21,471 nt of DNA, from positions 1-21,471 of the forward strand of contig DEUU01000394.1 of NCBI GenBank assembly GCA_002362735.1, in the 5' to 3' direction. Below, piece by piece: positions 1 to 21,471 of the stretch (position 1 is its first letter; each line of letters begins with the position of its first letter). The stretch is from Dehalococcoidia bacterium UBA3254 (GTDB taxonomy: Bacteria > Chloroflexota > Dehalococcoidia > Dehalococcoidales > UBA3254). Position numbers and translations under genes: made by a program. The notes under the pieces are model-generated. The model saw nothing but the letters and a program-made list of their open reading frames with translations, made no database searches and was not told the DNA's origin.

Positions 1-439
1 CTGCGTGACCGTCCTGCTGGCAAAGCACCGCATAGGTCCCATATTGCTTCTGAATTCTTTTAAGCTCTTTAACAATGATGTCCAGAGCTTCGTCCCAGGA
101 AATTCTCTGGTATTTACTGACACCACGGTTCTCGACATGACGTTCTCCGTCCGGGTCCCAGTCTACCCGTTTCAGGGGATAAAGGACTCGGTTTGGAGAA
201 TAAACACGCTTTTTATAAGCCAGACTATAGGGTGGTATCAGTGTTTTCATGCCTGGTTCCAGAACATGCCCATGAGCCTCCATTTTCCAGGCGTTGAACT
301 GTTTTGGATCGTATTTCCAGTCGTAGTGCAGTGGTCTGACTCTAACAATTCTGCCGTTTTGCAGGTCTACAACTGATGAGTTAGCATTCGGTGAGAAACC
401 AAGAGTCATGAGATTGGATTTGCCTTTCTGCTCTTTCAT
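1..439 (-). CDS. Molybdopterin-dependent oxidoreductase, transhydroxylase-like large subunit (partial, N-terminal 146 residues)
   Basis: Reading the minus strand from an ATG at 437-439 gives an open frame that runs off the left edge of the window; a purine-rich AGGGGGATTT precedes the start. The fragment aligns almost residue for residue with the N-terminus of the protein encoded at 1983-4610: shared blocks are VLEP, IPPY, LAYKKRVYSPNR, YPLKR, DWDPxGER, NRGxSKY, RISWDEA and the His-containing QxDGH near the fragment's end. It is therefore a paralog in the Mo-bisPGD (DMSO reductase) superfamily, in the branch of pyrogallol transhydroxylase large subunits. The first 40 residues contain no cysteine, so no N-terminal [4Fe-4S] cluster can be bound. 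It lies 129 bp downstream of the binding-protein gene on the same strand, with a hairpin between. Substrate unknown; the catalytic pocket is outside the window. Confidence 0.85.
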   Translation of the reverse strand, partial: MKEQKGKSNLMTLGFSPNANSSVVDLQNGRIVRVRPLHYDWKYDPKQFNAWKMEAHGHVLEPGMKTLIPPYSLAYKKRVYSPNRVLYPLKRVDWDPDGERHVENRGVSKYQRISWDEALDIIVKELKRIQKQYGTYAVLCQQDGHA

Positions 440-462
440 AAATCCCCCTGTCTTTTGATTAA

Positions 463-511
463 AAGCCTACAATCGGGGAAGTTGTTCCTTCGCTTCTCCG
501 ATTGCAGGCTT
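463..511 (-). terminator. Hairpin between the binding-protein gene and the downstream Mo paralog
   Basis: Arms 463-480 and 494-511 are inverted repeats of 18 bases with two imperfect positions, separated by a 13-base loop. Read on the minus strand one imperfect position is a U-G wobble, so the RNA stem is long and GC-rich in its middle. It is followed by only a short, interrupted U stretch (TTTTAATC). It lies after the stop of the gene at 569-1906 and before the start at 439. It could be a partial terminator or an mRNA-stabilising/processing hairpin that sets unequal expression of the two genes; the weak U-tract leaves this open. Confidence 0.5.
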
Positions 512-568
512 GAATGGATAAAAAATTATCTTATATTCTCCCTGAAAAGGGGGAGAAACCAGGTAAAG

Positions 569-1906
569 TTAGGGCATGGGGCTAACATCAACCCAGGCAC
601 CAAACTTGATTTGTCCTTTGTCCAGCGTCCAGACCTGATCCTGATGACTGTAGGCTTGCTTAATTCCGTAAGTCTTGAGGCCGCCGAGTTTAGCTGCTCC
701 GTAAGGAGTTTGCATGGTATCCATAGAAGTCCATGTGTTGGCTACGGTGGTAGTATCCAGACTGTTGGCTTTTTCAATAGCCTGCTTGAACATATACAGA
801 ACGTTTACTGCCTGCATGTGGATTGATCTTTCTCCATACTTGGTATAAATCTTGTCCAGATAGGTCTGCATCAAGGCCGGAGTATTGGGAGCTCCTTTGT
901 AAAGGCCAGGTGCAAAGAATCCGGTTGAATTGGAAGCCTGGGCAATGGTTAAAATATCCGTGGGAGCATTATCAATGGCGGCAGCAAAAATCATATTAGA
1001 TCCCAATTGACGGACTGATTTTAGAATATTGCCAGCATGGAATCCGACTCCATTCATCATGAAGATAGCATCCGCTTTAGACTGTACCAATCTATAAGCA
1101 ATAGGGCTAAAATCGATAGTTTCGTTGGCGAAAAGGATCGGGTCACCAACCACTGTGATCCCTGCTGCATTGAGGTAACCGGTCACCTGATTAATCGTTG
1201 AAGGCTGGGCATCACCCGGCGTGACATAGACCACTTTCTTGACGTTTTGATAATTCTGCTTCAGGTAGTTGATGACCGTTAACGCGTGTTCGAACGCTGA
1301 GTTATGGCAGAGGAAGGTATAGGTCATACCGGCGCCAAACTCCTGAGGCGTACCCGAGTCGAAGGTCTCGCCGCGGATGACTTTGTTCGATTCGCAAATA
1401 TCGGTGCAGGCTCCGCTAAAGAAAGCGGAGGGAGCAATAATGAATTTGACTTTATCCTGGAAAATGAGTTGATTAGCTCCAGCCACAACACCGTCGGTGG
1501 TACTCTTAAAATCATAGCTGATGAGCTGAATATTGTATTGCTGTCCCTGTACTTTAACACCGCCTTCGGCGTTAATCATGTCGACGGCGATCTGGGCTTC
1601 CTGAGCCTGGACCTGATCAAAATCGGAGAAGAAACCGGTAAGACCGAAGAGACCGCCGATTTTCAAGGTCTGTGGTGCTGTGGAGGTCGTGGGTGCCGCA
1701 GTGGAGGTAGGAGGTGCAGTCGTGGGAGGAGCGGAGGTCGCAGGCGGAGCAGTGGTCGTCTTGGGGGGAGCGCTGGTAGTAGTGGGGGGTGCACTGGTAG
1801 TGGTTGGCGGCGTCGTGGTAGTGGGAGTAGCCGGGTTCGAGCAGCCGCTGAGAATTATTCCGACCATTAATAGAATCACCAGAGAAACCAGACATAATTT
1901 TTTCAT
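569..1906 (-). CDS. ABC transporter substrate-binding lipoprotein (LivK/Peripla_BP_6 type)
   Basis: The 445-residue product begins with a lipoprotein signal peptide: basic MKK, a hydrophobic core, then a lipobox ending LSGC with the lipidated Cys at 22. Residues about 24-79 form a Thr/Pro/Ser/Ala linker typical of surface lipoproteins in bacteria lacking a conventional outer membrane. From about residue 80 the protein has the type I periplasmic binding fold of branched-chain amino acid/amide receptors: LKIGGLFGLTG at the first strand, an AINMINAEGG-like helix (VDMINAEGG), a central KKVVYVTPGDA and QSKADAIFMMNG. A strong AGGAGG lies 6-7 bases before the ATG. No permease or ATPase genes are visible; they may lie outside the window. 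Its position between two Mo oxidoreductase paralogs, 76 bp after the upstream gene, suggests it captures their substrate or a related aromatic or acidic compound (inference). The ligand cannot be predicted. Confidence 0.9.
   Translation of the reverse strand: MKKLCLVSLVILLMVGIILSGCSNPATPTTTTPPTTTSAPPTTTSAPPKTTTAPPATSAPPTTAPPTSTAAPTTSTAPQTLKIGGLFGLTGFFSDFDQVQAQEAQIAVDMINAEGGVKVQGQQYNIQLISYDFKSTTDGVVAGANQLIFQDKVKFIIAPSAFFSGACTDICESNKVIRGETFDSGTPQEFGAGMTYTFLCHNSAFEHALTVINYLKQNYQNVKKVVYVTPGDAQPSTINQVTGYLNAAGITVVGDPILFANETIDFSPIAYRLVQSKADAIFMMNGVGFHAGNILKSVRQLGSNMIFAAAIDNAPTDILTIAQASNSTGFFAPGLYKGAPNTPALMQTYLDKIYTKYGERSIHMQAVNVLYMFKQAIEKANSLDTTTVANTWTSMDTMQTPYGAAKLGGLKTYGIKQAYSHQDQVWTLDKGQIKFGAWVDVSPMP
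1670..1837 (-). repeat. Low-complexity Thr/Pro/Ser/Ala linker-coding repeat
   Basis: Degenerate repeats of units such as TTTSAPP and TTAPP encode the flexible tether between the lipid anchor and the binding domain of the lipoprotein. The biased composition opens spurious long frames on the opposite strand. Confidence 0.85.
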
Positions 1907-1982
1907 CTTAAACCTCCTTGTCGTTTAAAATTTAGAAGTAGATCATCCAAATTCGTTCGGCATATTCAAAGCCGGTTTTCTT

Positions 1983-4610
1983 TCATTTGATCCAGGAATC
2001 AAAACGTAAACCTGCAGCGGCATCATAATCTCTGGCAAATGCATCTGGATATTTACGCCGCCAGGAACTCATCTCCTGCGGGCTGACTATATCTAAGTTT
2101 ACCAGGTAGCCGCTGGTGGCCATGCCCCAGCAATTCTGTGATGTTCCATTGGCTGGAGCGATCAGGTTGATGGCTCCTCCACGATCTATGTATTCCTCTG
2201 GTCCGGCAGTGATAATATCCGCCCTGGCGCCGTGGTCTTGATAAACGACCCCCGGCATTATCCTTTCAGTGATGTAAGCTCCACCCAGAACAATACCCCT
2301 TTCATTATAAAGTTTGACGATGTCTCCATTCCGGATACTTTTTTTAACAGCATCCGAAGGATGAATCCAGACTGGTTCGTACATATATCCATCATATCCT
2401 TTTACCTTGCAGGTCTGAATTTCACGAAGCCACGTAATATCATCGTCTTGAGCGTGGGTCCGCCATCGGGGATGGTTACTTACCATCAGAAAGGGATAAT
2501 CCTTTGCCCGGGGGCTCGAGAGTCTTTCATCATGACTGGGACCTTTTTCAATCCATTTGGGCAAGGGGGGTCTCTCTTCGTCATCCGGGAAGGCATCTGC
2601 CAGCCGTTTGGAATAGAACTCCAGCTTGCCACTCGGGGTCTCCAGCGGATATTTGGCCGGGTCATCATGAAAGAGTCTTAATCCTGCGGGAGTACTCTCC
2701 CAATTCGGCGCCGTCGGGACGACGTAGTAGCCTTTTTCTTTAAATTTATCCCAGCTAATCATCTGGTCTATTTCAGTTATCTCAAAGCCAAGTTTAATTT
2801 TCTGCTCGACGGTCATATAGTCGGTATACTCTTCATAGAGTCCCATTTTTTTTGCTACTTCTCCGACCGCCTCATAATCACTTAAAGACTCGCCAACGGG
2901 TTCGATAGCCTTCTTTTCAATAGCCAGGCCACGGAAGGGGGTGCCTCCAGCCATAAACATGGCAATATCTTCTTCTTCAAGCTTGGTATTGCTTGGCAGG
3001 ATGATATCTGCAAAGACAGTATCATTTTCCAGCCAGGGATGCTGAATGACGATAGTTTCAATTTTCGGGCTGCGGAAAGCGTCCAGGGTTTTGAAGGCAT
3101 CATTCCAGCAGGTTGTGCGGCAGGGATTATCCATCCAGATCATGTGGATTTCAGTGCCGCCCTTTTCTTTTGGGATGGGATAAGTATATTTTACAAATTG
3201 GTCTTTAGTTCGGGCGTGCAGGTTAGTACTGCCCCACGTGCTGACAGGGGGATTCAGAATAGCCTGATGGACCAGAGTTTTAGGAATTAACTGGGGAGGG
3301 TTGGTATACACCAGATGTCCTGACCAGATTTTAGTTTTGAAAAGTGCCTTTTCATTTTTTGCCCGGTCCAGCTCTTTAGAAATTTCGAGGAACGCTTCAG
3401 TATGAGGAAGATCGTTCACTACGCGCGGAATTCCTGCAAAACGGGCGTATTGGTGGACGCCCGGTTTACCTAATCCCTGCATACCCAGCAGACAGCATTC
3501 CAATCTGGCCGGCTCATGGGCATAAGGTCCTCTAATATAAGAGCCTCCATAGAAGTGGATGACGGAAGTGATCTTAGCTGCCCAATCCCGGGCGAGGGCT
3601 TTAATGGTCCATTCCTTAACCCCACATTTTTCGGAAGCCCAGGCGGGGGTCTTAGGTACGCCGTCTTCTTTACCAGTGACATAATTAGTAAACTGTTCAA
3701 ATCCTACTACATGGGTCTTGACATAATCTTTATCATAAGTGCCTTCTTTAATCCAGACATAGGCAATCGCGAGTTGTAAAGCTGCATCAGTATTAGGCAG
3801 AATGGGGATCCATTTGTCAGCATGGATAGCCGCGGCGTAGTTGACATCCGGACTGACAAAGACCTGTTTAATGCCGATGCTGGTCCAGTAGTAGCAGACT
3901 TGACTGGGGAACTGACAGGAGAAGCCCCAGGGGGTAGTTTCCAGGTCGGATCCGATGTGCACGAGGAGCTGGGTATTTTGGGTGATATCCAGGAGAACAT
4001 TGTTTATGGGCATCATCATTCCCTGGGCGGTTTCTCCTCCCCAGACGTGTTCCGCACCCCAGTACCAACCTTCCCAACTATCTGCATTTCTGACCGCTAG
4101 AGAATATCCCCCCGCTTTGTCCATCAGCAGCATCTGGCAGGAATGAGGACCATGAATGGTCTTGGTTTCCCCGTGACCGTCACCCTGGCAAAGGAGAGCG
4201 TAGGGTCCGTACTTTTGCTGTATCCGTTTTATTTCATTGACGATAAGAGTGGAAGCCTCATCCCACGAGATTCTGACATACTTACTCTTGCCCCGGTTTT
4301 GAGGATTCCTTTCTCCATTCGGATCCCAATCCATCCTTTTTAAAGGATATTTAATCCGGTTGGGAGAGTAAACTCTCTTTTTATAAGCCAGTTGATAAGG
4401 TGGAATTTGATGCTTCAGCAGGGGTTCCAGGACCTTGCCGTTTTTTTCGATCCTCCACGGGTTGATTTCTTCTCTCGTATATTGTTTATCGAGGTGAGTT
4501 GGCCGGATGCGGATGATTTTACCGTCTTTCACATCCACATCTGAAGGGCAGCTATTAGCTGTAAAAGAACATTGACCAAGGCATTTCAGCACTGTTTTTT
4601 CAGAACTCAT
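1983..4610 (-). CDS. Molybdopterin-dependent oxidoreductase, pyrogallol transhydroxylase-like large subunit
   Basis: This is a Mo-bis(pyranopterin guanine dinucleotide) enzyme of the DMSO reductase superfamily. I chose the ATG at 4608-4610 (875 residues) because a GGAGG sits 8 bases upstream; an in-frame ATG at 4625 has no comparable site. The length matches, from memory, the ~875-residue Pelobacter AthL. Similarity to AthL is extensive: VKDGKIIR, PNGERNPQ, RISWDEA, then ADSWEGW (Asp177-Ser178), the counterpart of the NPDSWEGW that supplies the Mo-ligand serine in AthL, followed by HADKW, AIAYxW, EPVGESxSDYE, KGYYVVP, TPSGKLEF and RGGAINL. His146 may correspond to AthL His144. N-terminal cysteines 10, 14 and 21 (CX3CX6C) lack the usual fourth partner, so a standard [4Fe-4S] cluster is unlikely. 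No twin-arginine signal is visible, implying a cytoplasmic enzyme. No small Fe-S subunit gene is adjacent. First gene of the minus-strand cluster; the substrate is probably a hydroxylated aromatic (inference), and other hydroxylase or reductase chemistry is possible. Confidence 0.88.
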   Translation of the reverse strand: MSSEKTVLKCLGQCSFTANSCPSDVDVKDGKIIRIRPTHLDKQYTREEINPWRIEKNGKVLEPLLKHQIPPYQLAYKKRVYSPNRIKYPLKRMDWDPNGERNPQNRGKSKYVRISWDEASTLIVNEIKRIQQKYGPYALLCQGDGHGETKTIHGPHSCQMLLMDKAGGYSLAVRNADSWEGWYWGAEHVWGGETAQGMMMPINNVLLDITQNTQLLVHIGSDLETTPWGFSCQFPSQVCYYWTSIGIKQVFVSPDVNYAAAIHADKWIPILPNTDAALQLAIAYVWIKEGTYDKDYVKTHVVGFEQFTNYVTGKEDGVPKTPAWASEKCGVKEWTIKALARDWAAKITSVIHFYGGSYIRGPYAHEPARLECCLLGMQGLGKPGVHQYARFAGIPRVVNDLPHTEAFLEISKELDRAKNEKALFKTKIWSGHLVYTNPPQLIPKTLVHQAILNPPVSTWGSTNLHARTKDQFVKYTYPIPKEKGGTEIHMIWMDNPCRTTCWNDAFKTLDAFRSPKIETIVIQHPWLENDTVFADIILPSNTKLEEEDIAMFMAGGTPFRGLAIEKKAIEPVGESLSDYEAVGEVAKKMGLYEEYTDYMTVEQKIKLGFEITEIDQMISWDKFKEKGYYVVPTAPNWESTPAGLRLFHDDPAKYPLETPSGKLEFYSKRLADAFPDDEERPPLPKWIEKGPSHDERLSSPRAKDYPFLMVSNHPRWRTHAQDDDITWLREIQTCKVKGYDGYMYEPVWIHPSDAVKKSIRNGDIVKLYNERGIVLGGAYITERIMPGVVYQDHGARADIITAGPEEYIDRGGAINLIAPANGTSQNCWGMATSGYLVNLDIVSPQEMSSWRRKYPDAFARDYDAAAGLRFDSWIK

Positions 4611-4734
4611 ATCGGCATCCTCCATAATGTAAATGCACCGTGAGAACCATTAGAATGGTTTTTGTGTTTAATACAAATTCGGATGAGTTTGTTCTGGTTT
4701 CTTAAAATGATTAAATAATGTTTAAATTACGAAA

Positions 4735-5079
4735 CTATGCTTTTTTAAACGGGAAGGACTTCTTATAACTATGGTAGCATTCGATAATAAAACTGTCTAT
4801 GATGATGGCAAATTTGGATGCATCTATTCCAGCTAATATTGGAGTATTGTTAAGCAAGTTGATAACATCTTTCCTGGAATATTTGGAATCTCTTATGATC
4901 TCAGAGGAGGACATGGATGTTATTTTTACATTTTCCCGGGAGTAATTTTTAGGATTTAGCTCGGTAACCATCCAGTCCCTGCCCCATTTTTGCCCCTTAA
5001 GTTTTCCTGAACGGAGTAAACGTCTGACCTGGCTGGTGTCCAGATTAAGTTTTTCGGCAGCTTGGTTGACAGTAAACAA
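4735..5079 (-). CDS. Excisionase-family (MerR/HTH_17-like) small DNA-binding protein
   Basis: A 114-residue protein. Residues 1-40 read FTVNQAAEKLNLDTSQVRR followed by LLRSGKLKGQKWGRDWMV, a typical winged helix-turn-helix of excisionase/HTH_17 proteins, with the RSGxLKG turn and the KxGRxW wing. The C-terminal ~70 residues (YSRKDVINLLNN, IIECYHSYKK) are not recognised. The start is uncertain: the in-frame TTG at 5077-5079 has only a weak GGAA/GGG upstream, and the frame stays open further upstream (residues reading LISEWDL) into the inverted-repeat element at 5107-5215. The original 5' end may therefore have been replaced by that element. It lies 124 bp upstream of the Mo oxidoreductase gene on the same strand and could regulate it, or be a remnant of a mobile element. 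Function inferred from the HTH only. Confidence 0.7.
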   Translation of the reverse strand: MFTVNQAAEKLNLDTSQVRRLLRSGKLKGQKWGRDWMVTELNPKNYSRENVKITSMSSSEIIRDSKYSRKDVINLLNNTPILAGIDASKFAIIIDSFIIECYHSYKKSFPFKKA

Positions 5080-5354: not shown

Positions 5355-8300
5355 TTAATTGGTTACCGTGATATCGTGGCTCAGGGACTCAGCATTGATC
5401 TCAGGGTTGTAATAAGAATATGCGTCAGAAGCTACGGCTTTGGCTTTTACCGGATACATAGCCTTGACCAGGAAGTTGAATGAAATCTTATCGCCGGGAA
5501 GCATGTTATCGACATAGAAAATGACTTTTCTCCCTGAGATATCATAGCGTTTGATCTGTTTTTGCTGCGTCACCATTTTGTCGATTGACTCTTTAACGGC
5601 GGTAAATCCGGTGGGCACTGAAACATCTACCACTACCATTCCGGCTTCAACAGGTTCAGGAGGATTGAACGAAAGGTTGACGTCGACCTTAACTTCATCG
5701 TTAACGGCGACCTCATCGGCGTTATAATTAACATCTACTTTCAGCACATCATTTTTCTCCTGGATGGAATCTGGCAAATTAAATCTCTGAACGATTTGAC
5801 CAATGGCTTCGCCCTTGCCGGTAACACTTATTTTTACGGTGTCGTTGATAGGAATATCCACAATCTGCAGGATATCGAAATTTCGTGAATTAACTTTGAT
5901 TTGCTGGGGTTTTTCTTTAGATAAGATGTTAACGGTCAGGTCGACATCCGCTCTTGAATTGGTGGAATATTCAATTAACGCCTGTAAGGCCATGACGGTA
6001 TCCTGAGTGGAACCGAAACCGCCACTGGAGTTCCGCTTGGACACCAACCACCTCGCGGCTTTGGAAGCATTCAGGTTATCTCCATGCTGAATCAGCGAAA
6101 GCGCAGCATAAGCGGTGGCTTCAATGAATGAAGTCGATTCTAATGGTTGCACTGGCCGCATTTTTAATGCTGGAATTGGATTGTCTGCTATCGGCGGGAG
6201 TACTGTATTATTTCCCCAGAAGAGGCCGTTTTCATCCTCTTTCGCTAATTGCATCAGCTTGTCATAAGCGGCTGTAGCCCTGGAGCTTTTGGCCATTTCC
6301 AGAGCATCGGTGAGAAGGGCGACGGCATATGGATCATCGGTCTTATCGATCTGGTTTTCCAGATAAGAAATAGACTTAAAGGATCCGCTGTGTTCCCCGG
6401 CTTGCATCAGGGCAATAGCGATGTAGGCCGTCAGAGCAGTTTTTCCCTTGACTCCGCCGAGCATTTCCTGATGATGGACGAATCCTACTGCATCGAATGA
6501 TCCGTCGGAATTCTGATGGGAAAGAATCCAGGATTTGGCTTCATTTAAAATGCTGTCATCGATATATATCAAACCTTTTGCCTCGGAAAAACATTTCAGG
6601 ACGAAAGCGGTCAACCAGAGACTGCCCTCTTTATCACTTTCGCCAAAGGCGGAGAAACTTCCATCTTTATGCCGATATGTGAGTTCTCTCTGATAACCGG
6701 TAAGCATCAGCTTTTCAGCTTTAGCCATAATCTCCGGTTTAAGCTGTCCGCTTTCCTTTAAGTATTTGGTGATGTAAACGTCCGGGGCGAAGATGATCAT
6801 ATTTTGTTCTCCGCATCCGAAAGGCATTTGTATCAGAGAGTCCAATCCATCCAGAGTTTGGGTCAAATAGCTGGAAGTAACCGTAAAATAAGCCCTGGCA
6901 GAACCTTCTACCACAGAACTGGGAATAAGTGTCGAAATATCAGAACTTTTTCCGTTTGAAAGGGTTATGTTATTGACGGTCTCGCGGGCAACTCCTTCAG
7001 CTTCTACAATGATATTCTTGACTACGGCATCGGCAGATTGGGGACTTTGAGCGGTGATCTTGACTCCCCGGGTCCCGAGTTGTTTTGGTCGGATCATAAA
7101 TTGTGCACTGCCAATGTTATTGGCTCCGATGACGATGTTCTTCTGGGGGTTATCCAGCAAGTCAAACCAGGTGTCCTGCTGAATATTAACGACAACACTC
7201 TGAGGCTGATCCAGGTAGTTATAGATTGCGACTTTGACAGGGAACTCTTCACCGCGAATTGTAGAGTAAGGCAGGTCCACGGTTAAAAAGAAAGGTTGGA
7301 ACACGGTCAGTTGACTTTCAGCAATTCCTAATCCTTGAGTTTTGGATATTGCCACGGCTCTGAGCATCCAGTTAGTAATCGTATCCGGTACGGTAACGGA
7401 AAGAGATGCTTTACCACGGGAGTCTGTTTTTACGAGATCCCAGATCCAGGTCTCAGGAAAGAACTGGCGGATTCTCTGAACTTCGGCCAGATTTTCACCG
7501 GCTGATTGCTTTTGACTGGCATTAATCCCGGCCGTAGCCTGTGCAGGCATGGGTGCTACCATGGGAGGCATCACTCCTTCGGCCATGTCAAACCGAATTC
7601 CTCCTCCGAGCATACCTTTACTTACCGGAGACTGGTATTTTTTACCTTCAGGTACCTTGTTATTACTTAATACGATGACTCCAGCATTCTGGAAGACCTC
7701 TTTGGCGCCGCGGTTTTCAATTCCTTCATAGATTGAGACTTCGTGCAATTCTGCTTGAGGATTCATATATAGTTCTTCCAGCTTATCGAAAACTTGCTGG
7801 AGGTTCATACGGTTTTCGGCGAGTATAAAAACGGATTTATCTACTGCGGCGATGCCGACTTCGGACTGGCTCTGCGTCTGGATATTGATCTTGATATCTT
7901 CGCCGGGTTGGGCGTTTTCAACGCTGGTGCTAAGGGTAATATTCTGCGGGTATTGGGCCGTGACTTCAAATGGGAGGTAATCGGCTGCCACTTCGGCATT
8001 GGGTAAGATCTGGTAGACTAACAACCTCGCGGAAGGAGCCATAGCAGGAGTTGTCTTGAAAGTGATTTCACTTCCCTGGGTGTAATTGGAATAAACTACT
8101 GTTCCCCGGGAAATGATTTCATAATAGAAGTTGACGGCTTCTTTTGTGGAATAGACCCAGAATGTAATATTTCCGCCCGCATTCGGGGTCCCTTCACTGG
8201 TCTGTTCCAGGTGGATAAAGTTTCCGGAAGGCGAATAGGCCGCTTCGATGGTCTTAGTAACAGAGCTGTTTTTGGAGTTGCAGGTAATCGTTAAGACAAC

Positions 8301-9512
8301 CGCATTATCGGGAGGATTCAATTCGAATAAGGCTTTGCCTTTATTGGTGTTTAGATTTTGCTTTTCCTGTTTTATTTCCTTAAAATTCTGGTCCAGGTAA
8401 GAAACAGTAGCTGCAATCGTGGCATCCACCAACTGATTATCCGGAGTCTCTGAAATTGTCAGGAAGCTGTAAGGTAATCCGGGTTTAAATGTAGACCCGG
8501 AGGGAATGATTTTTAAATTTACGGAAGATTGAGCCACCGTGAGAAGGGTATCCGTCTTTTCTTGATAGCCGGTGGAGTCTTCATTAACAGTGAATTCAAG
8601 CTTGACGTTACCGTTGCCGCCAGCCTGCGGTACGCCAGCTACATAAGAAGCGGCCGGAACCGTAAATTCGGCCTCTCCGTCAATATTGAGATTGATGGAG
8701 GCATATTCCTGCCAGGTTCCTACATACTTTGTAGCTTTGATTATCAGTGTGCCTTTTACGGGTTTTCCAAAACTATAGGTAGCCGTGACTTTACCTTTAA
8801 TGGGTTCATTGACAAGGAACCAATCTTTAGGAATGTCTGCTTTCACTTCATATTTAGGTAGTACGTATTCTTCCACTTTAACATCGATCTGGGTTTTAGT
8901 CTTTGCGGTCGAAGCTGTGATTTTCCACGTTCCCAAATTCGGCTCGGTTGAAATCGGTAAATCTATCGTGGTTATTCCGTAGTCATCAGTTTGTTTTTCC
9001 TGACGGAATATTTTGATTCCCTTAGCGTCCAGAATCTCTACCGAGACAGTCTCGCTTACAGGATTCAATTCTGAATTTAAAGTCATCATTCTCATATGGA
9101 GCGTCTGTCCGGGCTTGTAGATCGGTTTATCCGTTTCCAGGAAGATCACGTAATTATTTTCTACTTTGACGACGGCTTCATCCTGGAAGTTATCCCCCTT
9201 GACTTGAAGGGTATAATCACCTTCATCGAGATCGGGGATATTCAATTGAATCTGCCCGTTGCCTTTGATATTGCCCTGGGCTTGGGAAAGCTGTTTGCCA
9301 TCTTTGAGTAAGGTCAAATTTACTTTTCCTGAAGCCGGAGAATCGCCAGTAAAAAGCGCGATGGAGACCGGCTGTTTGGTACCCGATTGAAGGATAGCCG
9401 GTACAAGAGCGGTATAGGCTGAAGCTGCTGGGGAAGGCTTACACGATGGAATGAGAGTAACCAGCAGAGCTATGGTCAGTATAGCTGCCAGTATTCTGAG
9501 TTGTTTCGACAT
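5355..9512 (-). CDS. Alpha-2-macroglobulin family thioester lipoprotein (C3/A2M/TEP-like)
   Basis: The ATG at 9510-9512 was chosen because a GAGG lies 6 bases upstream and a signal peptide follows at once; the longer frame to 9596 adds unlikely residues. The product has 1385 residues. A hydrophobic signal ends IPSC (Cys24), a probable lipoprotein cleavage site. TDKPIYKPGQT (127-137) marks the MG2-type domain. About residues 625-680 is a Gly/Met/Pro/Ala-rich stretch in the bait-region position, followed by RQFFPETWIW (~685). PFGCGEQNM carries the intact thioester Cys900-Gly-Glu-Gln903 at the start of the alpha-helical thioester domain. The end has a receptor-binding-type (MG8) domain with AYSYYNPE. 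Known family role: a protease entering the bait region triggers trapping and thioester attachment. A surface-anchored protease trap defending the cell is inferred. The ~1400-residue length and CGEQNM resemble animal TEP/A2M proteins more than the ~1650-residue E. coli YfhM. No pbpC partner is adjacent. Divergent from the ArsR gene. Confidence 0.95.
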   Translation of the reverse strand: MSKQLRILAAILTIALLVTLIPSCKPSPAASAYTALVPAILQSGTKQPVSIALFTGDSPASGKVNLTLLKDGKQLSQAQGNIKGNGQIQLNIPDLDEGDYTLQVKGDNFQDEAVVKVENNYVIFLETDKPIYKPGQTLHMRMMTLNSELNPVSETVSVEILDAKGIKIFRQEKQTDDYGITTIDLPISTEPNLGTWKITASTAKTKTQIDVKVEEYVLPKYEVKADIPKDWFLVNEPIKGKVTATYSFGKPVKGTLIIKATKYVGTWQEYASINLNIDGEAEFTVPAASYVAGVPQAGGNGNVKLEFTVNEDSTGYQEKTDTLLTVAQSSVNLKIIPSGSTFKPGLPYSFLTISETPDNQLVDATIAATVSYLDQNFKEIKQEKQNLNTNKGKALFELNPPDNAVVLTITCNSKNSSVTKTIEAAYSPSGNFIHLEQTSEGTPNAGGNITFWVYSTKEAVNFYYEIISRGTVVYSNYTQGSEITFKTTPAMAPSARLLVYQILPNAEVAADYLPFEVTAQYPQNITLSTSVENAQPGEDIKINIQTQSQSEVGIAAVDKSVFILAENRMNLQQVFDKLEELYMNPQAELHEVSIYEGIENRGAKEVFQNAGVIVLSNNKVPEGKKYQSPVSKGMLGGGIRFDMAEGVMPPMVAPMPAQATAGINASQKQSAGENLAEVQRIRQFFPETWIWDLVKTDSRGKASLSVTVPDTITNWMLRAVAISKTQGLGIAESQLTVFQPFFLTVDLPYSTIRGEEFPVKVAIYNYLDQPQSVVVNIQQDTWFDLLDNPQKNIVIGANNIGSAQFMIRPKQLGTRGVKITAQSPQSADAVVKNIIVEAEGVARETVNNITLSNGKSSDISTLIPSSVVEGSARAYFTVTSSYLTQTLDGLDSLIQMPFGCGEQNMIIFAPDVYITKYLKESGQLKPEIMAKAEKLMLTGYQRELTYRHKDGSFSAFGESDKEGSLWLTAFVLKCFSEAKGLIYIDDSILNEAKSWILSHQNSDGSFDAVGFVHHQEMLGGVKGKTALTAYIAIALMQAGEHSGSFKSISYLENQIDKTDDPYAVALLTDALEMAKSSRATAAYDKLMQLAKEDENGLFWGNNTVLPPIADNPIPALKMRPVQPLESTSFIEATAYAALSLIQHGDNLNASKAARWLVSKRNSSGGFGSTQDTVMALQALIEYSTNSRADVDLTVNILSKEKPQQIKVNSRNFDILQIVDIPINDTVKISVTGKGEAIGQIVQRFNLPDSIQEKNDVLKVDVNYNADEVAVNDEVKVDVNLSFNPPEPVEAGMVVVDVSVPTGFTAVKESIDKMVTQQKQIKRYDISGRKVIFYVDNMLPGDKISFNFLVKAMYPVKAKAVASDAYSYYNPEINAESLSHDITVTN

Positions 9513-9526
9513 CTTGATCCTCGCTA

Positions 9527-9556
9527 CCGGAAGGAGTATTTGAAAATATCTTCCGG
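9527..9556 (-). promoter_or_regulatory. Leader hairpin upstream of the alpha-2-macroglobulin gene
   Basis: CCGGAAG at 9527-9533 pairs with its complement at 9550-9556, and an inner AT-rich stem (TATTT/AAATA) extends it around a two-base loop at 9542-9543. It lies about 15-45 bases before the ATG, just outside the GAGG ribosome site, so it would form in the mRNA leader. It may stabilise the transcript or tune translation; the function is unproven. I could not identify a convincing promoter for this gene. Confidence 0.4.
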
Positions 9557-9615
9557 ACTTAACATATTCAAAAGATATAACGTAGATAATGGGCAAAAGT
9601 TATGCTTTGACGAAA

Positions 9616-9694: not shown

Positions 9695-10030
9695 ATGTCA
9701 TCCAAATATAATATGGAACTGTACAGATTGAAAGCGGACATCAGTAAGGCCTTTGCAGATCCGAAGCGGCTCATTATTATCACAGAGCTAAGGGATGCGG
9801 AAAAAACCGTGGGAGAACTGGTGAAAGCTATAGGGATCGGTCAGGCAGTGATATCCAGACAACTGGCAATTTTGAGGGCCAGCGGCGTGGTTATTTCTCG
9901 CAGGGCGGGCAATAACATTTTTTATCACTTATCTGACCACCGAATCTGCGAAGCCTGTGACATTGTACATGCAGTATTACTGGACCGCCTGGCGAAAAAT
10001 AAAGAGATGGCAGAGTCTCTACTGGGATAA
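9695..10030 (+). CDS. ArsR-family winged-helix transcriptional regulator
   Basis: A 111-residue winged helix-turn-helix protein. KAFADPKRLIIITEL is the classic ArsR opening helix; EKTVGELVKAIGIGQAVISRQLAILRASGVV is helix-turn-helix plus recognition helix, and RRAGNNIFYHL is the beta wing. The metal box ELCVCDL of arsenic/cadmium sensors is absent; the only cysteines are the ICEAC pair at the C-terminal helix, so metal sensing is not supported and a redox or metabolite signal is possible. GAGGAG lies 7-8 bases before the ATG. A promoter and palindromes precede it. It is followed after 55 bp by the FAD/Fe-S oxidoreductase on the same strand, which it most likely controls along with itself. Confidence 0.88.
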   Translation: MSSKYNMELYRLKADISKAFADPKRLIIITELRDAEKTVGELVKAIGIGQAVISRQLAILRASGVVISRRAGNNIFYHLSDHRICEACDIVHAVLLDRLAKNKEMAESLLG

Positions 10031-10085
10031 ATCTAAAGAATCAATGTCAAAGTTAAACCGATGAGCGATAGGAAAGGTGATAAAT

Positions 10086-13000
10086 ATGGTTAATATTAAT
10101 AATGAACAGCGTGCATATCTGGAACGAGAGTTTGGTAACAGGGTATCATTTCGTAAGACTGAAAGGAAGCTTTATGGGCATGATATTGCTGCTTTGCCCA
10201 GTATGATCCGGCCTCTGGTTGGAGATACTACTCCCGCGGCGATTGTCCAGCCGACTTCAGAAGCCGAGCTGGTTAAGTTAATACGATGGGCATCAGTTCA
10301 AAATATCCCACTTACCCCGAGAGGTAAAGCGACGAGCGGATACGGCGGCGTCTTGCCCGTGAAACAGGGTCTGGAGGTAGATTTTTACCGTATGAAAGAA
10401 ATCCTGAACATCGATAGCGAGCATCTGACGGTTACCGTCCAGCCTGGCATTGTATTTGAAAAACTGGACAAAGAGTTAGAAAAGAAGGGGATGACTTTGA
10501 GGTTGTATCCTTCCAGCTATCCGGCGGCGACAGTGGGTGGATGGTTGGCCCAGGGAGGTGCTGGGATAGGTTCTTTTGAGTCTGGATGGTTCAAAGATAA
10601 TATTATCAGTGTCCGCGCTGTGACCCCTGACGGTCAGACCAGGGTATTCCGGGGAAGAGATCTGGACCTGATCAGCGATGCTGAGGGAACGACCGGTTTT
10701 ATCAGCGAAATTACGTTGCGTGTTCAGCCCAGAGAGGAATTAGACATTGTCGCCGTCGGCAGCCCGGACGCAGCCAGTATGCAGAGTTTAATCCAGGATA
10801 TAAATGATGAAAAAATTCCCATCTGGTCTCTTCTCTTTATTAACCCGCTGATGGCTGAGTTAAAGAACGTAGTTCCGCTGAGAGAACATCTGGGGAACCC
10901 GGTAGAAGAGAGGGTGCTATTACCCAAATTATATATCACGACTCTGGCGTTTCGGTCTAAAGACCGGTCCAGAGTGATGGAAAAATTGCCAGCTTTTATC
11001 AAACGCAGCAATTCTCAGCAATTGCCGGATCCAGTAGCACAGCACGAATGGGAAAACAGGTTCAAGATTATGGTCGTCAAGCGTTTGGGGCCAAGCCTGG
11101 CACCGGCTGAGGTTGTGGTTCCGCTTAAAAATTTGGGGAAATTTATGGCTGAGATAGAGCAGAAAGTCAACCAGCCGATGGTAAAAGAAGGGATTGTTGT
11201 CAGAAACGGAATAAGCGGCCAGCCTGAAGCTATCGTGATGGCGCTGATACCCAGTGATCAGCGCCAGTTCAGATATAATTTCGTTTTCGCTTTAGCGTTG
11301 ACCATCATGAAGATAGCGAAGAAATACGGCGGCCGACCTTACACTACCGGACTCTATTATGCCAGCCAGGCCAGGGAGGTTTTGGGATCAGAAAGAGTTG
11401 AACGGCTGAAGGCTTTCAAGCAAGAAGTCGATCCTCAAGGGATACTTAACCCGGGTAAGGTTGTGGCGAAAGGTGCTCTGGGTACGGCGATGAATTTAGC
11501 CAATACATTTGAGCCCATCATCCGGCCGCTGGGTAACCGGGTGGTAACTAAAATCGGTGAAAAACCGGCGGGCACAATCCGGGGTATACCGGGAGATGTG
11601 GCCTGGTATGCCTATGCTTGCTCTCAATGCGGCTATTGCGTCGATGAATGCGATCAGTTCTACGGCAGGGGCTGGGAGAGTCAGACTCCGCGCGGAAAAT
11701 GGTTCTGGCTGCGGGAATATCTCGAGGGGCGTGAGAAATGGGACCAGTTCATGATTGACAGTATAGTGTCCTGTACGACTTGTGAATTATGCAATCATCG
11801 TTGTTCTGTATCTCTGCCTATTGAATCGTCATGGATGAAATTGCGCGGAGAACTGATTCAAGAAGAGAAAAAAATGACATTCCCACCGTTCGAAGTGATG
11901 GCGGCAGCATTAACCAAGGAGGGTGATATCTGGGCTGGATACCGGACAGACCGGACTGCCTGGTTCCCGGAAGATCTCAAGAAAAAGCACGGACCCGAAC
12001 ATAAAGCCAAAATGGTCTATTTTGCCGGATGTACTGCCAGCTACGTTGAGCGCGATATCGCTATGGCCAGTGTCAGACTGCTGGATGCTGCCGGATTGGA
12101 TTTCACATATCTCGGTAGCGAAGAAAACTGCTGCGGCACGCCGATGCTGGTTGCCGGGAAATGGGATGTCTTTGCGGAGACTATTAGGAAGAATATCGAG
12201 GCGGTCATGAAATCCGGAGCGGATACGGTGGTGACTTCCTGTCCAGCCTGCGACATGATGTGGAGACATACTTATCCGAAATGGGCGAGTAAGATGGGGA
12301 TTGAATTCAACATCAAGACTAAACACTACAGCGAGGTGATTGCTGGGAAAATAGCTTCGGGCGAATTCAAGTTTCCGCCTCATAACCAGGAGCCATGTAC
12401 GGTAGCCTGGCATGATTCCTGTCACATCGGACGTGTCTCCGGGGTCTATGAACCTCCGCGTGAAATGATCAAAGCTATTCCTAACGTGAAACTGGTAGAG
12501 ATGGAGCATAACCGCGAAGAAGCTCACTGCTGTGGAAGTGTTCTAACTTTAATCAAAGATCCGCCGGTAGCCGCGGATATCGGTCAGGTTAGACTTAACG
12601 AAGCACTGGATGCCGGGGCGAATAAAGTAGTCTCTCTTTGTCCCTGCTGCGAATTTCAACTGCGAGTTAGCGCGGATAAGAAAAAAGTGCCGATTGAAGT
12701 AGTCGACCTGGCGCGTTTTGCCGCATCAAGATTAGGTTATGAGTTTCCTGATCCTCATCCTGAAGTAAAACGTCAGTGGGCAGCTTTTGAAGCTATGATT
12801 GCATTGATGACGCCGGAAGGATTTGCATCTTTGATGGGGACCATGTGGCCAGAGTTGATTAGTGCAATGCCGATGGGAATGGGGCCAATGATGAGGGTGA
12901 TGGGAAAAATTCCCGGAGCGTTGAACTTAATAAAACCGATGTTCCCGATTTTGTTTCCCAGACTGTTACCCATGATGATGCCTAAAGTGATGCCGACCAT

Positions 13001-13214
13001 GTTAAAAAGAATTGGCGATCGTGTCCCAATGCCGGACTATATGTTTGAACAAATGCCGCAGTTGATGCCAAAAGTAATGGATAATCTTATGCCGCATATG
13101 ATTAAGGACGTGGTACCGCTGGTGACGCAGCCTATGATCGATTACTTAAAAGGTAAGACTGACACTCCGGATGATCCGGCCCAGGATTCCAATTCCGACA
13201 GCAAGACGGTTTGA
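10086..13214 (+). CDS. FAD-linked oxidase / 4Fe-4S / CCG-domain fusion oxidoreductase (GlcD-GlpC/HdrB type)
   Basis: 1042 residues starting at the ATG at 10086 (AAAGGTGA upstream); a GTG at 10077 is in frame but would place the ribosome site inside the gene. Domains in order: FAD_binding_4 (PCMH/VAO fold, ~40-220, with TPRGKATSGYGG), an FAD-oxidase C-terminal domain to ~470, a ferredoxin-type region with CSQCGYC at 512 and CTTCELCNHRC near 563 (two CX2CX2CX3C motifs), then two cysteine-rich CCG domains (GCTAS...NCCG...CPAC, ~645-720; SCHIG...HCCG...CPCC, ~778-856). The CCG repeats are those of HdrB/GlpC. A Met/Pro-rich tail fills about 917-1015. The family oxidises 2-hydroxyacids such as lactate or glycolate and passes electrons through Fe-S clusters to a quinone or partner; the exact substrate is not evident. 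Soluble or membrane-associated, no signal peptide. It shares an operon with the ArsR gene and its 3' end overlaps the convergent YkgJ gene by 83 bp. Confidence 0.92.
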   Translation: MVNINNEQRAYLEREFGNRVSFRKTERKLYGHDIAALPSMIRPLVGDTTPAAIVQPTSEAELVKLIRWASVQNIPLTPRGKATSGYGGVLPVKQGLEVDFYRMKEILNIDSEHLTVTVQPGIVFEKLDKELEKKGMTLRLYPSSYPAATVGGWLAQGGAGIGSFESGWFKDNIISVRAVTPDGQTRVFRGRDLDLISDAEGTTGFISEITLRVQPREELDIVAVGSPDAASMQSLIQDINDEKIPIWSLLFINPLMAELKNVVPLREHLGNPVEERVLLPKLYITTLAFRSKDRSRVMEKLPAFIKRSNSQQLPDPVAQHEWENRFKIMVVKRLGPSLAPAEVVVPLKNLGKFMAEIEQKVNQPMVKEGIVVRNGISGQPEAIVMALIPSDQRQFRYNFVFALALTIMKIAKKYGGRPYTTGLYYASQAREVLGSERVERLKAFKQEVDPQGILNPGKVVAKGALGTAMNLANTFEPIIRPLGNRVVTKIGEKPAGTIRGIPGDVAWYAYACSQCGYCVDECDQFYGRGWESQTPRGKWFWLREYLEGREKWDQFMIDSIVSCTTCELCNHRCSVSLPIESSWMKLRGELIQEEKKMTFPPFEVMAAALTKEGDIWAGYRTDRTAWFPEDLKKKHGPEHKAKMVYFAGCTASYVERDIAMASVRLLDAAGLDFTYLGSEENCCGTPMLVAGKWDVFAETIRKNIEAVMKSGADTVVTSCPACDMMWRHTYPKWASKMGIEFNIKTKHYSEVIAGKIASGEFKFPPHNQEPCTVAWHDSCHIGRVSGVYEPPREMIKAIPNVKLVEMEHNREEAHCCGSVLTLIKDPPVAADIGQVRLNEALDAGANKVVSLCPCCEFQLRVSADKKKVPIEVVDLARFAASRLGYEFPDPHPEVKRQWAAFEAMIALMTPEGFASLMGTMWPELISAMPMGMGPMMRVMGKIPGALNLIKPMFPILFPRLLPMMMPKVMPTMLKRIGDRVPMPDYMFEQMPQLMPKVMDNLMPHMIKDVVPLVTQPMIDYLKGKTDTPDDPAQDSNSDSKTV

Positions 13215-13826: not shown

Positions 13827-14020
13827 ATACATATGCGAATGACCATATCGAGATTAATTTTTGTTACCTTTGTAATTTCATTATGATTCTTATTCTTGTA
13901 AAATTCAGATTTCTAATTTATTCTTCTCATTCTAAGTCAGGTATATTAAGAAAATATTAAGAACAACGGGTATTTTTGATTTAATTTGCAGTAGTAGTAG
14001 AATTGAGGAAAGGGTGGGGG

Positions 14021-14713
14021 TTGAAATTGAAAATAGCGGGAATTATCGCCAGACTGATTTTTATCCTTTGCTTTCCGATTTTATTTTTATCTACCAGTCT
14101 TGCATGGGGTTTTAATAGTACCTGGATATTTAACTACGGTTTCCAAAAATACGATGTCAGTAATTCTACTGGTATTCCGAAGACCGAGTTGGATAAAATT
14201 GGAGGAAGCTGGCTTTATTATATTAATTCTGGAGATGAATACTGGCATATCTCCTTGACGCAAAACGGCCAAACGTTTGAGCTTTTTACTCAGGAGGAGC
14301 AGGTTCACTTCCGGGATGTAAAGCAGTTAATCTGGTTGGACTACCGCTTCTTAATTGTTTCTCTGGTTCTGGTTGTAGCATATATTGTTGCTGCAATTTT
14401 TTGGCGGCGCGGTAAATACTTGAAATCGATGGCTCGCAGTGTAATCTGGGGAAGCGGAATAACGGTCTTATTAATCATTATTCTGGGTGCAGCTTCTTTT
14501 CTAGACTTCGATCAACTCTTCTTGCAATTGCATAACTTAATCTTTACTAACCAGTTCTGGTCGGCTCAGGGTTATATGCTGATGCTGTTTCCCGGTGGAT
14601 TCTGGTTTGATGCCGCCCTGTTTTGCATTGGTTTTATGGCTGGATTAGCCTTGATTTTTGGTATGGCATCGTGGGTGTATCTGAAGATTCAGAGCCAGCG
14701 TAATAATGATTGA
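14021..14713 (+). CDS. TIGR01906/DUF1461 family integral membrane protein
   Basis: A 230-residue protein with four predicted membrane segments: IIARLIFILCFPILFLSTSL near the N-terminus, then FLIVSLVLVVAYIVAAIFW, ITVLLIIILGAASFL and ALFCIGFMAGLALIFGMASW. Between the first two lies an extracytoplasmic loop of about 80 residues with family-like features: FNSTWIFNYGF, STGIP, then a late FTQEEQVHFRDVKQLI (the E..H.xDVK motif of DUF1461). The start is one of several TTGs; 14021 follows the purine run GAGGAAAGGGTGGGGG, whereas the in-frame TTG at 14003 has none (that choice would add six residues). The family is of unknown function in Firmicutes and Chloroflexi. It precedes the CorA-like gene, which has its own promoter. 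Confidence 0.83.
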   Translation: MKLKIAGIIARLIFILCFPILFLSTSLAWGFNSTWIFNYGFQKYDVSNSTGIPKTELDKIGGSWLYYINSGDEYWHISLTQNGQTFELFTQEEQVHFRDVKQLIWLDYRFLIVSLVLVVAYIVAAIFWRRGKYLKSMARSVIWGSGITVLLIIILGAASFLDFDQLFLQLHNLIFTNQFWSAQGYMLMLFPGGFWFDAALFCIGFMAGLALIFGMASWVYLKIQSQRNND

Positions 14714-14738
14714 CAAGTCCATTTCAAGTACCTATGAT
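14710..14738 (+). promoter_or_regulatory. Sigma70-type promoter for the CorA-like gene
   Basis: TTGACA at 14710-14715, a 17-bp spacer, TATGAT at 14733-14738. The -35 box overlaps the stop codon of the preceding gene; the predicted start is near 14745, 36 bases before the ATG. Confidence 0.68.
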
Positions 14739-14780
14739 ATATATGCAAAAAATGAATAATCCAATTTAGAGGCTTACCAC

Positions 14781-15908
14781 ATGAAAGAAATTGAACAACC
14801 CAAGGCTACTTCTCAGATACCGCTTCATCTTCCAAATATAGGCCCGGGAGCTCCAGAGCTATATCAAAGGCGTTGGTTTTGCGTGGGGCTTTATCCTTCA
14901 GGTAAGACTTTCAAGCAGGATGCCGAATCCCCAATGCCTTTTCTGGAGATTATCAGTCGCTCCGTGGTAGCCTGGGTGGACTACATTACGGATGATCCTG
15001 TCAGGGACATACCCGTAGTTGCCGCTCAGATGGGATTCAGCGAAATGCTGATATCTTCGATTTCAGGAGATACACCGTTAAATTATCAGGATTTTGATAT
15101 GGAAATGTGGATGAGACTGCCCTCGATCCAGATTCGAGGTGTAGACGTTAAGGCCTATCCTCTCTTCTTGCTGATACGTAAAAACTTTGTTTTCACTATT
15201 CACGTTAGCCTGGTTGATAAAAGATTTATTAGATTAAGGAGATATTCTGACACTATTTTAAGAAAAATCCCGCTGGATGGTGCCCCTGAAGATAAGCTAA
15301 CAATTCTGGTGAGTCGCATTATCGATGCAAACGACGATAGTAATTTCAGGCATCTAAGGGTAATTGAGGAACGCGGAGATGATTTGAATCAGGATCTCAT
15401 GAATACTGAAACTAACAGGTCTTTACTGGCCCCAAAAATCTATGAAATGAAGCATGCTTTAATAACTTATATGAATGCACTCTGGGAAAGTGTAGATGTG
15501 CTTCATGCACTCCGTTATGGAGATGCTGAACTCATTACGAATGATGAAAAACTGTTGAATATGTTGAGTGTAATGACGGATGAGGTTAAAAGTCAAATTG
15601 GTCTTGCGGAGCATATGTCCGAAGTTCTGGCTTCTGGATTGGAAGTGATGCAGACCATTTATAATAATCAGCTCCAGATATTAAATAACCGTTTTTCAAT
15701 GGTGATAACTTATCTCACGGTAATCGGCACCGCGGTATTGGTTCCGAACACCCTTGCGACCATATTCGGTAATTCGGCTTTCGATATGGGTCCCGAGGAC
15801 ATATGGTGGTATGTTACTCTGCTGGTAGTTTCGACATTTATCTCTACCTACTTAATGTGGTGGTGGATGAGAAGAAGAGGATTTTGGCCCAAGAAACCCG
15901 AGTGCTAG
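14781..15908 (+). CDS. CorA-like divalent cation transporter lacking the GMN motif
   Basis: 375 residues, ATG with GAGG 8-9 bases upstream. The long N-terminal cytoplasmic part ends in an extended helix (QTIYNNQLQILNNRFSMVITYLTVIGTAVLVP), then the first membrane segment, a short loop and a second segment (IWWYVTLLVVSTFISTYLMWWW) before a basic tail: the 2-TM-GxN layout of CorA. The signature loop, normally YGMN after the first helix, reads IFGNS (Gly330-Asn331-Ser332), so the Asn of GMN appears shifted or Met is absent. Family role: pentameric Mg/Co/Ni or Zn channel. With an altered filter the ion preference cannot be assigned. Transcribed from its own promoter overlapping the preceding stop. 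Confidence 0.85.
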   Translation: MKEIEQPKATSQIPLHLPNIGPGAPELYQRRWFCVGLYPSGKTFKQDAESPMPFLEIISRSVVAWVDYITDDPVRDIPVVAAQMGFSEMLISSISGDTPLNYQDFDMEMWMRLPSIQIRGVDVKAYPLFLLIRKNFVFTIHVSLVDKRFIRLRRYSDTILRKIPLDGAPEDKLTILVSRIIDANDDSNFRHLRVIEERGDDLNQDLMNTETNRSLLAPKIYEMKHALITYMNALWESVDVLHALRYGDAELITNDEKLLNMLSVMTDEVKSQIGLAEHMSEVLASGLEVMQTIYNNQLQILNNRFSMVITYLTVIGTAVLVPNTLATIFGNSAFDMGPEDIWWYVTLLVVSTFISTYLMWWWMRRRGFWPKKPEC

Positions 15909-18816: not shown

Positions 18817-18820
18817 GAAC

Positions 18821-21052: not shown

Positions 21053-21471
21053 AATATCTTATCCTAAAGAGATAATCAAAGATCTTATCGAAGGTAAGCT
21101 TCCCTGGGATCGAACCAAACAAATCGTCAGCGACTACAAAGATAATGACCGATTTGATAAGTATGTTGAGATCCTTCAGGAGAAGGTTACCTGGAAAGAG
21201 AAAATCCTTTTGCCATTAACCGATGAACTGTATATTGTGCAAAAGGGCAACGAAATGATCGTAAAATGTACCTGCGGACATGAATATGGAGACTACCGAA
21301 TTAACTGGAAGTTGAATGCTTTGATTCATGTAAGAGAGTCTCCCGAGGAGATAAAAGAAATTTATCCTTATCCGGGATCTCCGGACCCTGAATATTGCGA
21401 AATCAGAGAATACTATTGTCCGGAATGTGGTACTCAGCTACAGGTGGAGACTGTTCCTTTCGGTTACCCGA
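21045..21471 (+). CDS. acxC: Acetone carboxylase-like gamma subunit (partial, 142 residues visible)
   Basis: ATG at 21045 with AAGGAG 7 bases upstream, overlapping the alpha stop by 8 bp; open to the right edge of the window. The visible part has the AcxC pattern: IKDLIEGKLPW near the start, DRFDKYVEILQE, VQKGNE, KCTCGHEYGDYRINWKLNAL (Cys75, Cys77), IYPYPGSPDP, IREYYCPECGTQL (Cys125, Cys128) and VETVPFGYP. The four cysteines form the zinc-ribbon-like site of the family, whose full length is about 168 residues. Gamma is the subunit that separates acetone/acetophenone-type carboxylases from plain hydantoinases and oxoprolinases, so it fixes the identity of the operon. Confidence 0.88.
   Translation, partial: MAEISYPKEIIKDLIEGKLPWDRTKQIVSDYKDNDRFDKYVEILQEKVTWKEKILLPLTDELYIVQKGNEMIVKCTCGHEYGDYRINWKLNALIHVRESPEEIKEIYPYPGSPDPEYCEIREYYCPECGTQLQVETVPFGYP

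Follow-up and report, generated by a model that had tools for sequence, protein, structure and literature searches.

AthL-like molybdenum enzymes adjoining an ABC-type receptor in a Dehalococcoidia bacterium: a probable sister clade of the pyrogallol-phloroglucinol transhydroxylase

Introduction

The pyrogallol-phloroglucinol transhydroxylase of Pelobacter acidigallici (AthLS; structure 4v4c) pairs a large molybdenum (Mo) subunit, AthL or PgtL, with a small subunit, AthS, which has three [4Fe-4S] motifs, and uses 1,2,3,5-tetrahydroxybenzene as co-substrate. In this study, a stretch of 21,471 nucleotides from Dehalococcoidia bacterium UBA3254 (contig DEUU01000394.1) was analysed over its full length, hereafter called the window. 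Its left end encodes two AthL-like proteins, AthL1 and AthL2, with one ATP-binding cassette (ABC) type substrate-binding lipoprotein, the receptor, between them. Judged from sequence comparison, both AthL-like proteins belong to a sister clade (clade II) of the clade that contains the characterised AthL (clade I).

Related enzymes have been described in several papers, cited here from their accessible excerpts. The resorcinol hydroxylase of Azoarcus anaerobius (RhL/RehLS) was grouped with PgtL as Ser-coordinating, cytoplasmic, and hydroxylating (PMC10100899); a tree legend elsewhere labels AthL and rhL separately (PMC7327174). Chloroflexota from sediments, including RBG-2, RBG-1351, and DEH-C11, were reported to encode "pyrogallol hydroxytransferases", with several AthL-like copies per genome (PMC3971608, PMC4959651). 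These genes were interpreted as pyrogallol degradation (PMC3971608) or as transhydroxylation/hydroxylation of aromatics (PMC4959651). The multiple AthL copies are similar to the present locus; the division into clades, the pocket changes, and the receptor neighbour are unmentioned in the excerpts of the two papers. The gut catechol dehydroxylases (Dadh, Hcdh, and Cadh) share with AthL1 and AthL2 the Mo-bis(pyranopterin guanine dinucleotide) (Mo-bisPGD) type, and act on phenolic-ring substrates; they were placed apart from the pyrogallol hydroxytransferase and nearest to acetylene hydratase (PMC7028382). No experimental work on clade II was found in the accessible excerpts of the open-licence PMC literature. 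AthL1 and AthL2 are members of a large AthL-family group without known experimental work, and do not represent a new kind of system.

Gene organization and family membership

The three genes are transcribed on the minus strand in the order AthL1, receptor, AthL2. AthL1 (1983..4610) is a complete AthL-like Mo-bisPGD catalytic protein of 875 amino acids (aa), as assigned by the open reading frame (ORF), Pfam, PDB search, tree, and active-site residues. Its ORF opens at 4625 (4625-1983, 880 aa); the ATG at 4610, which gives 875 aa, has GGAGG just 5' of it. The receptor (569..1906, 445 aa) was assigned to the HAAT / Leu-Ile-Val family by ORF, Pfam, AlphaFold2 (AF2) model, and Foldseek. AthL2 (2..439), identified by ORF, Pfam, and its identity to AthL1, is represented by its N-terminal 146 residues, and the window edge cuts the rest. 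The gaps are 76 bp (AthL1-receptor, 1907-1982) and 129 bp (receptor-AthL2, 440-568). The initial annotation had described two same-strand Mo-bisPGD proteins separated by one receptor with gaps of this size. The coordinates are exactly as claimed there, and the arrangement is confirmed as real, rightly described, and no chance match. The sole gene between the two Mo enzymes is indeed a receptor: it has a Peripla_BP_6 domain (126.4 bits, Pfam), and its N-terminus has the lipobox LSGC followed by a Thr/Pro/Ser-rich tether. It is assigned as a HAAT / Peripla_BP_6 ABC receptor with a lipoprotein signal.

Both Mo proteins match PF21423 (AhtL-like_1st) with 32.7 bits for AthL1 and 32.2 bits for AthL2 (gathering cut-off 27), and both exceed the curated cut-off of PF00384. 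The top PDB match of AthL1 is Pelobacter AthL (4v4c_A, 430.8 bits); the runner-up is a dimethyl sulfoxide (DMSO) reductase with 228 bits, and acetylene hydratase scores 55.5 bits. The AthL kinship proposed earlier is thus borne out for both proteins, which are assigned to the AthL/PgtL-RhL family in the wide sense. Clustering with a characterised but unrelated enzyme was also considered; the closest solved relative of AthL1 is AthL, with DMSO reductase and acetylene hydratase scoring lower. By eye, AthL1 shows neither an export signal nor an N-terminal Fe-S motif; the latter is absent from Pelobacter AthL, too. All NCBIfam models matching AthL1 were under their cut-offs. Among the 120 matches listed for AthL1, the named relatives are Dehalococcoidales or Chloroflexi metagenome-assembled genomes (MAGs) and one unassigned metagenome entry. 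The AlphaFold model of AthL1 was poor (predicted local distance difference test, pLDDT, 48.2) and was left unused.

Several other identities were rejected. A DMSO/trimethylamine N-oxide reductase (TorA, DorA, BisC) was ruled out for AthL1 by the scores of 430.8 bits for AthL and 228 for DMSO reductase, and kinship to acetylene hydratase by its low score. The latter also separates AthL1 from the catechol dehydroxylases, whose kinship was ruled out by their published placement, as given in the excerpt of PMC7028382. AthL1 and AthL2 share 59% identity across 143 residues, which supports the paralogy noted in the initial annotation. A local tandem duplication was ruled out; because of this identity and their different subclades, they are regarded as old paralogues.

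Phylogenetic analysis

Phylogenetic trees were reconstructed with FastTree (163 rows, TorA as the outgroup) and IQ-TREE (72 rows, including three clade I rows), both without a mixture model. The characterised reference was Pelobacter AthL. The AthL family divides in two in the FastTree tree. Clade I (21 rows) includes Pelobacter AthL, L132, Actinomycetota rows, and Proteobacteria (Salipiger, Ensifer, and Cupriavidus). Clade II contains both AthL1 and AthL2, with Pelobacter AthL outside; its 140 rows are no measure of abundance, since AthL1 served as the seed for most of the rows. The three clade I rows separate again in the IQ-TREE tree, where forcing AthL1 together with them costs 121 log units (approximately unbiased, AU, test, p 0.00314). 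The records of clade II span Chloroflexota, Desulfobacterota, Actinomycetota, and Clostridia. AthL1 falls within a group of 36 rows, all of them database entries of metagenome or MAG origin (such as P0001, 86%, and P0002, 79%). AthL2 falls in another subclade, whose rows of named origin are Chloroflexota in the FastTree tree; its exact placement is unsure because only 16% of the alignment columns are filled. AthL1 and AthL2 are assigned to a sister clade of the pyrogallol-phloroglucinol transhydroxylase clade, with the position of AthL2 unsure. The earlier suggestion of an uncharacterised clade holds to the extent that neither protein groups with the characterised AthL, as shown by the trees and, for AthL1, the AU test.

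Clade I enzymes were also found in the wider group. L132 has 61% identity to Pelobacter AthL, with AthS downstream; it stems from the order to which a genome titled Dehalococcoidales belongs. Together with L144, L145, and L151, which like L132 come from genomes in the order or class of Dehalococcoidia records, it is a better candidate for the true pyrogallol transhydroxylase in the Dehalococcoidia group. Two records should be read with care. L057, titled ANME-2 archaeon, has an AthL almost the same as the Desulfobulbaceae copies (end branch 0.02), and a binning error is possible. L002 / L110 (G002:C94) has an AthL copy with an in-frame TAA, which may be a broken gene, an assembly error, or a frame artefact.

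Active site residues

The active-site residues were compared using the chain numbering of 4v4c, which we take to agree with the numbering of the 2004 structure paper. Ser175 is presumed to be the Mo ligand, and Asp174 and His144 active-site residues; Tyr152, Tyr404, and Tyr560 are presumed to line the pocket, and Trp147 and Cys557 were compared as well. The counts cover 138 rows of clade II without the two window proteins, and 20 rows of clade I without Pelobacter. In clade II, His144 (138/138), Asp174 (136/138), and Ser175 (138/138) are conserved. AthL1 keeps the equivalents of all three, as in Pelobacter AthL, with the serine within a DSWEGW stretch; the visible part of AthL2 stops just past the His, the one residue of the trio in the window. 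The pocket is different. All 20 clade I rows have Tyr152 and Tyr560, and 19 have Tyr404. None of the 138 clade II rows has Tyr152, positions 557 and 560 are gapped in all 138, and the region of 404 has no confident alignment. AthL1 keeps none of Trp147, Tyr152, Tyr404, Cys557, and Tyr560 (Cys557 varies within clade I too), with Gly, Lys, and a gap at AthL positions 152, 404, and 560, respectively; the alignment is unsure around 404.

Since the Mo-site residues are retained and the pocket tyrosines are replaced or absent, the Mo site matches AthL and the substrate pocket does not, which suggests that the substrate of clade II differs from that of AthL. If many AthL-like genes are of clade II, the reading given to this numerous family in the sediment Chloroflexota papers may be wrong for many copies, because clade II is without the tyrosines in the pocket of the characterised enzyme.

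The receptor and the proposed function

The AF2 model of the receptor has a pLDDT of 86.9, and its best Foldseek match is LivJ (4gnr). LivJ, LivK, and leucine and urea receptors are the top matches. The receptor shares the fold and family of the HAAT receptors, including LivJ 4gnr, UrtA 7s6f, and the 4-hydroxybenzoate receptors 4ey3 and 4evs; its identity to the 50 solved chains listed is 14-20%. The family by itself gives no ligand. Among the named relatives of the receptor, the best match (68%) is a protein of a Syntrophorhabdales MAG. A Peripla_BP_6 protein of more distant kinship is encoded about 4.9 kb away from an AthL cluster in L184. At least 14 of 79 loci have genes of TRAP or MFS transporter clusters no more than 8 kb from AthL, a raw count.

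We regard AthL1 and AthL2 as probable cytoplasmic enzymes of the AthL/RhL branch within the DMSO reductase superfamily, in clade II. Their proposed reaction would be hydroxyl-group transfer, addition, or removal, with a phenol or an acid of the hydroxylated aromatic (or similar cyclic) type as the substrate. The substrate would be other than pyrogallol, and might be unlike between AthL1 and AthL2. The lipoprotein might capture this substrate or a related compound for an ABC importer encoded elsewhere. If a small Fe-S subunit is used, its gene would lie past AthL2 or at another genomic site, and the subunit may be shared, as in relatives where several AthL genes surround a smaller number of AthS genes. 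Taken together, uptake coupled with hydroxyl chemistry on a probably hydroxylated aromatic by clade II enzymes is given about an even chance. The window offers a concrete test case, in that the ligand of the receptor would point to the substrate of the neighbouring enzyme.

Gene contexts of the relatives bear on this chemistry. A UbiX flavin prenyltransferase gene lies directly downstream of the AthS-less AthL2 relatives L178 and L181, which are two of the four close relatives with downstream sequence. It is not a neighbour in L180 and L182 of the same subclade, and the contig of L185 ends within AthL. The vicinity of L181 also encodes UbiD, an HpaB-family protein, an Fe-alcohol dehydrogenase, and a coenzyme A (CoA)-transferase. 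Such neighbours of the UbiX/UbiD/HpaB type fit anaerobic breakdown of aromatic acids. Another context was found in seven of the 79 loci (L008, L012, L013, L015, L016, L018, and L036; titled Desulforhopalus, Desulfobacterales, Desulfobacteraceae, deltaproteobacteria, Proteobacteria, and SAR324), where a gene for a PsrA-like Mo protein (600-800 aa) lies 41-292 bp upstream of a clade II AthL on the same strand. In six of the seven (all but L008), an NrfD-family cluster, assigned by Pfam from one of its members, is represented within 8 kb; L012 also has a Fer4 protein. In these organisms, such neighbours suggest a redox reaction tied to the quinone pool. Both contexts favour aromatic acids or phenols as the targets of hydroxyl chemistry.

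The PsrA-like and NrfD genes could also indicate net redox chemistry, that is, quinone-linked reductive dehydroxylation or hydroxylation, rather than redox-neutral transhydroxylation. However, these loci belong to subclades other than those of AthL1 and AthL2, and the window has no PsrA-like or NrfD genes; net redox chemistry seems unlikely here.

Recurrence of the pair and the transcript unit

Relatives of the pair were searched for in genomes and metagenomes. No relative above 63% identity to AthL1 was found in 156, 393, and 84 genomes (partly overlapping), and none on viral contigs. In the order of genome G006, receptor relatives at E 1e-30 were found in 4 of 156 genomes, with identity of 33-38%. 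For the best relative of AthL1 (P0001, 86%) and that of the receptor (P0121, 97%), the reported source is in each case a single JGI contig 8,214 bp long. It is probably the same one, so the AthL1-receptor pair probably recurs. The receptor is the more similar of the two to this putative contig, and the differences of AthL1 are scattered along the protein; the reverse would be expected. The best AthL2 match among the matches listed is P0260 (76%). A pairing on an ENA contig of 7,441 bp (receptor P0130 and AthL P0280) was set aside as a possible coincidence, because P0280 ranks only 106th of 240 for AthL2 and 174th for AthL1. The combination of AthL and receptor appears to be unusual, as judged from the window and one probable second contig.

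Folding of the 129-nt receptor-AthL2 gap gives -44.7 kcal/mol (z -4.56), a value that none of 200 shuffles reached; within the gap lies a strong 18-pair hairpin (463..511, minus strand, window 511-463). With it between receptor and AthL2, the single unit of three genes that was first supposed is no more than possible. The 3' arm continues into TTTTAATC. As two of its four T lie in the stem, an intrinsic terminator here would have a short T run. A pattern-based terminator scan (loop 3-8, five T in eight) did not return the hairpin, which has neither feature. It may act as a terminator, an attenuator, or a transcript stabiliser for the receptor; AthL2 may be expressed with, below, or apart from the receptor.

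The initial annotation had proposed a dedicated uptake-and-conversion module, and its interpretation is partly supported. That the receptor would carry the substrate of the enzyme is less secure, as its nearest solved relatives are of the amino acid/urea type. A number of observations weigh against the uptake and conversion of a hydroxylated aromatic. The nearest solved relatives of the receptor carry the names of branched-chain amino acid or urea receptors; the p-hydroxybenzoate receptor 4ey3 appears at rank 10, and other aromatic-acid receptors lower. No permease or ATPase gene was found among the ORFs of at least 100 aa in the window. A search at E 1e-5 among the ORFs of the 79 genome loci, with flanks of 10 kb or, in many cases, less, returned no receptor relative; the AthL proteins there have at most 61% identity to AthL1. 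In the order of G006, the best receptor relatives lie on contigs other than the listed AthL places of the same genomes. The location of P0001 and P0121 on one contig is concluded solely from equal size and source, and no AthL2-like protein from the 8,214-bp contig was among the 120 matches listed for a profile of the L123 AthL and the 146 residues of AthL2. The hairpin may separate AthL2 from the receptor transcript. No evidence on the substrate of clade II proteins was found.

The small Fe-S subunit

AthS was called from a score above 100 bits against a single reference. The fetched loci gave 115 distinct AthL rows, of which 93 have AthS within 400 bp downstream and 4 upstream only; 11 have neither (with at least 900 bp read downstream), and 7 reach the contig end. 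When at least 900 bp downstream is required, AthS is downstream in 91 of 104 rows. For three of the 11 AthS-less rows (L002, L024, and L079), the readable upstream sequence is about 300 bp or less. The numbers for downstream, upstream only, none, and contig edge are 75/3/3/4 in the main part of clade II, 13/0/3/1 in clade I, and 5/1/4/2 in the AthL2-like group; L032 alone has none. The clade II AthS of L112, the one protein run against Pfam, has Fe-S domains and a C-terminal CarboxypepD_reg domain.

Within the window, no AthS gene lies between the two Mo proteins, as had been noted, nor on the other side of AthL1, in contrast to Pelobacter AthLS. This can be said of AthL1 and not of AthL2, because AthL2 runs off the window after 146 residues. 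AthL genes outnumber AthS genes in some clusters, with three AthL and one AthS in L184, and four AthL and three AthS in L187. The existence of such clusters makes sharing of AthS, or its action in trans, plausible.

An ordinary two-subunit AthLS might be considered, with one AthS just beyond AthL2 shared by both large subunits, and the receptor as an insertion or a chance neighbour for general amino-acid-like uptake. The downstream AthS in 93 of 115 rows, the known AthL-AthL-AthS tandems (L184 and L187), the Leu/Ile/Val-urea type of the receptor, and its absence from the 79 genome loci all point this way. However, AthL1 has no AthS on either side in the window, the AthL1-receptor pair apparently recurs on another contig, and AthL2's group lacks AthS in 4 of 10 testable rows. 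This arrangement is possible, although somewhat doubtful.

Alternatively, the Fe-S subunit might have been lost, with a single-subunit AthL exchanging hydroxyl groups without outside electrons or using a soluble electron donor. The Mo site of Pelobacter AthL lies in the large subunit, and 11 of 115 rows lack AthS, among them L178, a whole contig of 7.4 kb. In G003, at least six clade II AthL places were found vs three AthS-like places, one of which is beside a listed AthL. However, the genome assemblies are fragmented, and AthS can act in trans. The AthL counts per genome are lower bounds, with at most six candidates scored for each, and one or more AthS-like matches at E 1e-30 came from every one of the 20 genomes checked. 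Loss of the subunit is considered improbable. Of the earlier suggestion that the clade works without AthS or with one encoded elsewhere, the existence of AthS-free AthL-like genes in relatives stands; AthL function without AthS is unsupported, and the sequence downstream of AthL2 lies beyond the window. The broader view that clade II comprises Mo enzymes with non-pyrogallol chemistry, some of which, perhaps including AthL1 and AthL2, would lack an Fe-S subunit and be fed by their own lipoprotein receptor, is similarly held to be a long shot. Uptake with hydroxyl chemistry by clade II enzymes, with AthS beyond AthL2 or elsewhere if used, is preferred.

Other genes in the window

A small helix-turn-helix protein (HTH_17, Pfam; 4735..5079, minus strand) is encoded upstream of AthL1 and is a possible regulator; an excisionase model matches it below its cut-off. 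No Rfam family matched the window at the gathering threshold. Further along, the minus strand encodes a bacterial alpha-2-macroglobulin (5355-9596, 1413 aa) with a thioester domain and GCGEQ in its translation. The following genes lie on the plus strand. An ArsR-type regulator is followed by a 1045-aa fusion protein that joins flavin adenine dinucleotide (FAD)-linked oxidase, 4Fe-4S, and CCG domains and extends far beyond them at the C-terminus (9695-13214); FAD-oxidase and CCG occur as separate genes near AthL in L181. A Lit-like lipoprotein transacylase is followed by a CorA-like transporter (14003-15908). A three-gene acetone carboxylase-like operon (16642-21471) encodes a beta-type subunit (601 bits to 5m45_B), an alpha-type subunit (362 bits to 5m45_A), and a gamma-type subunit (Acetone_carb_G) that is cut by the window edge.

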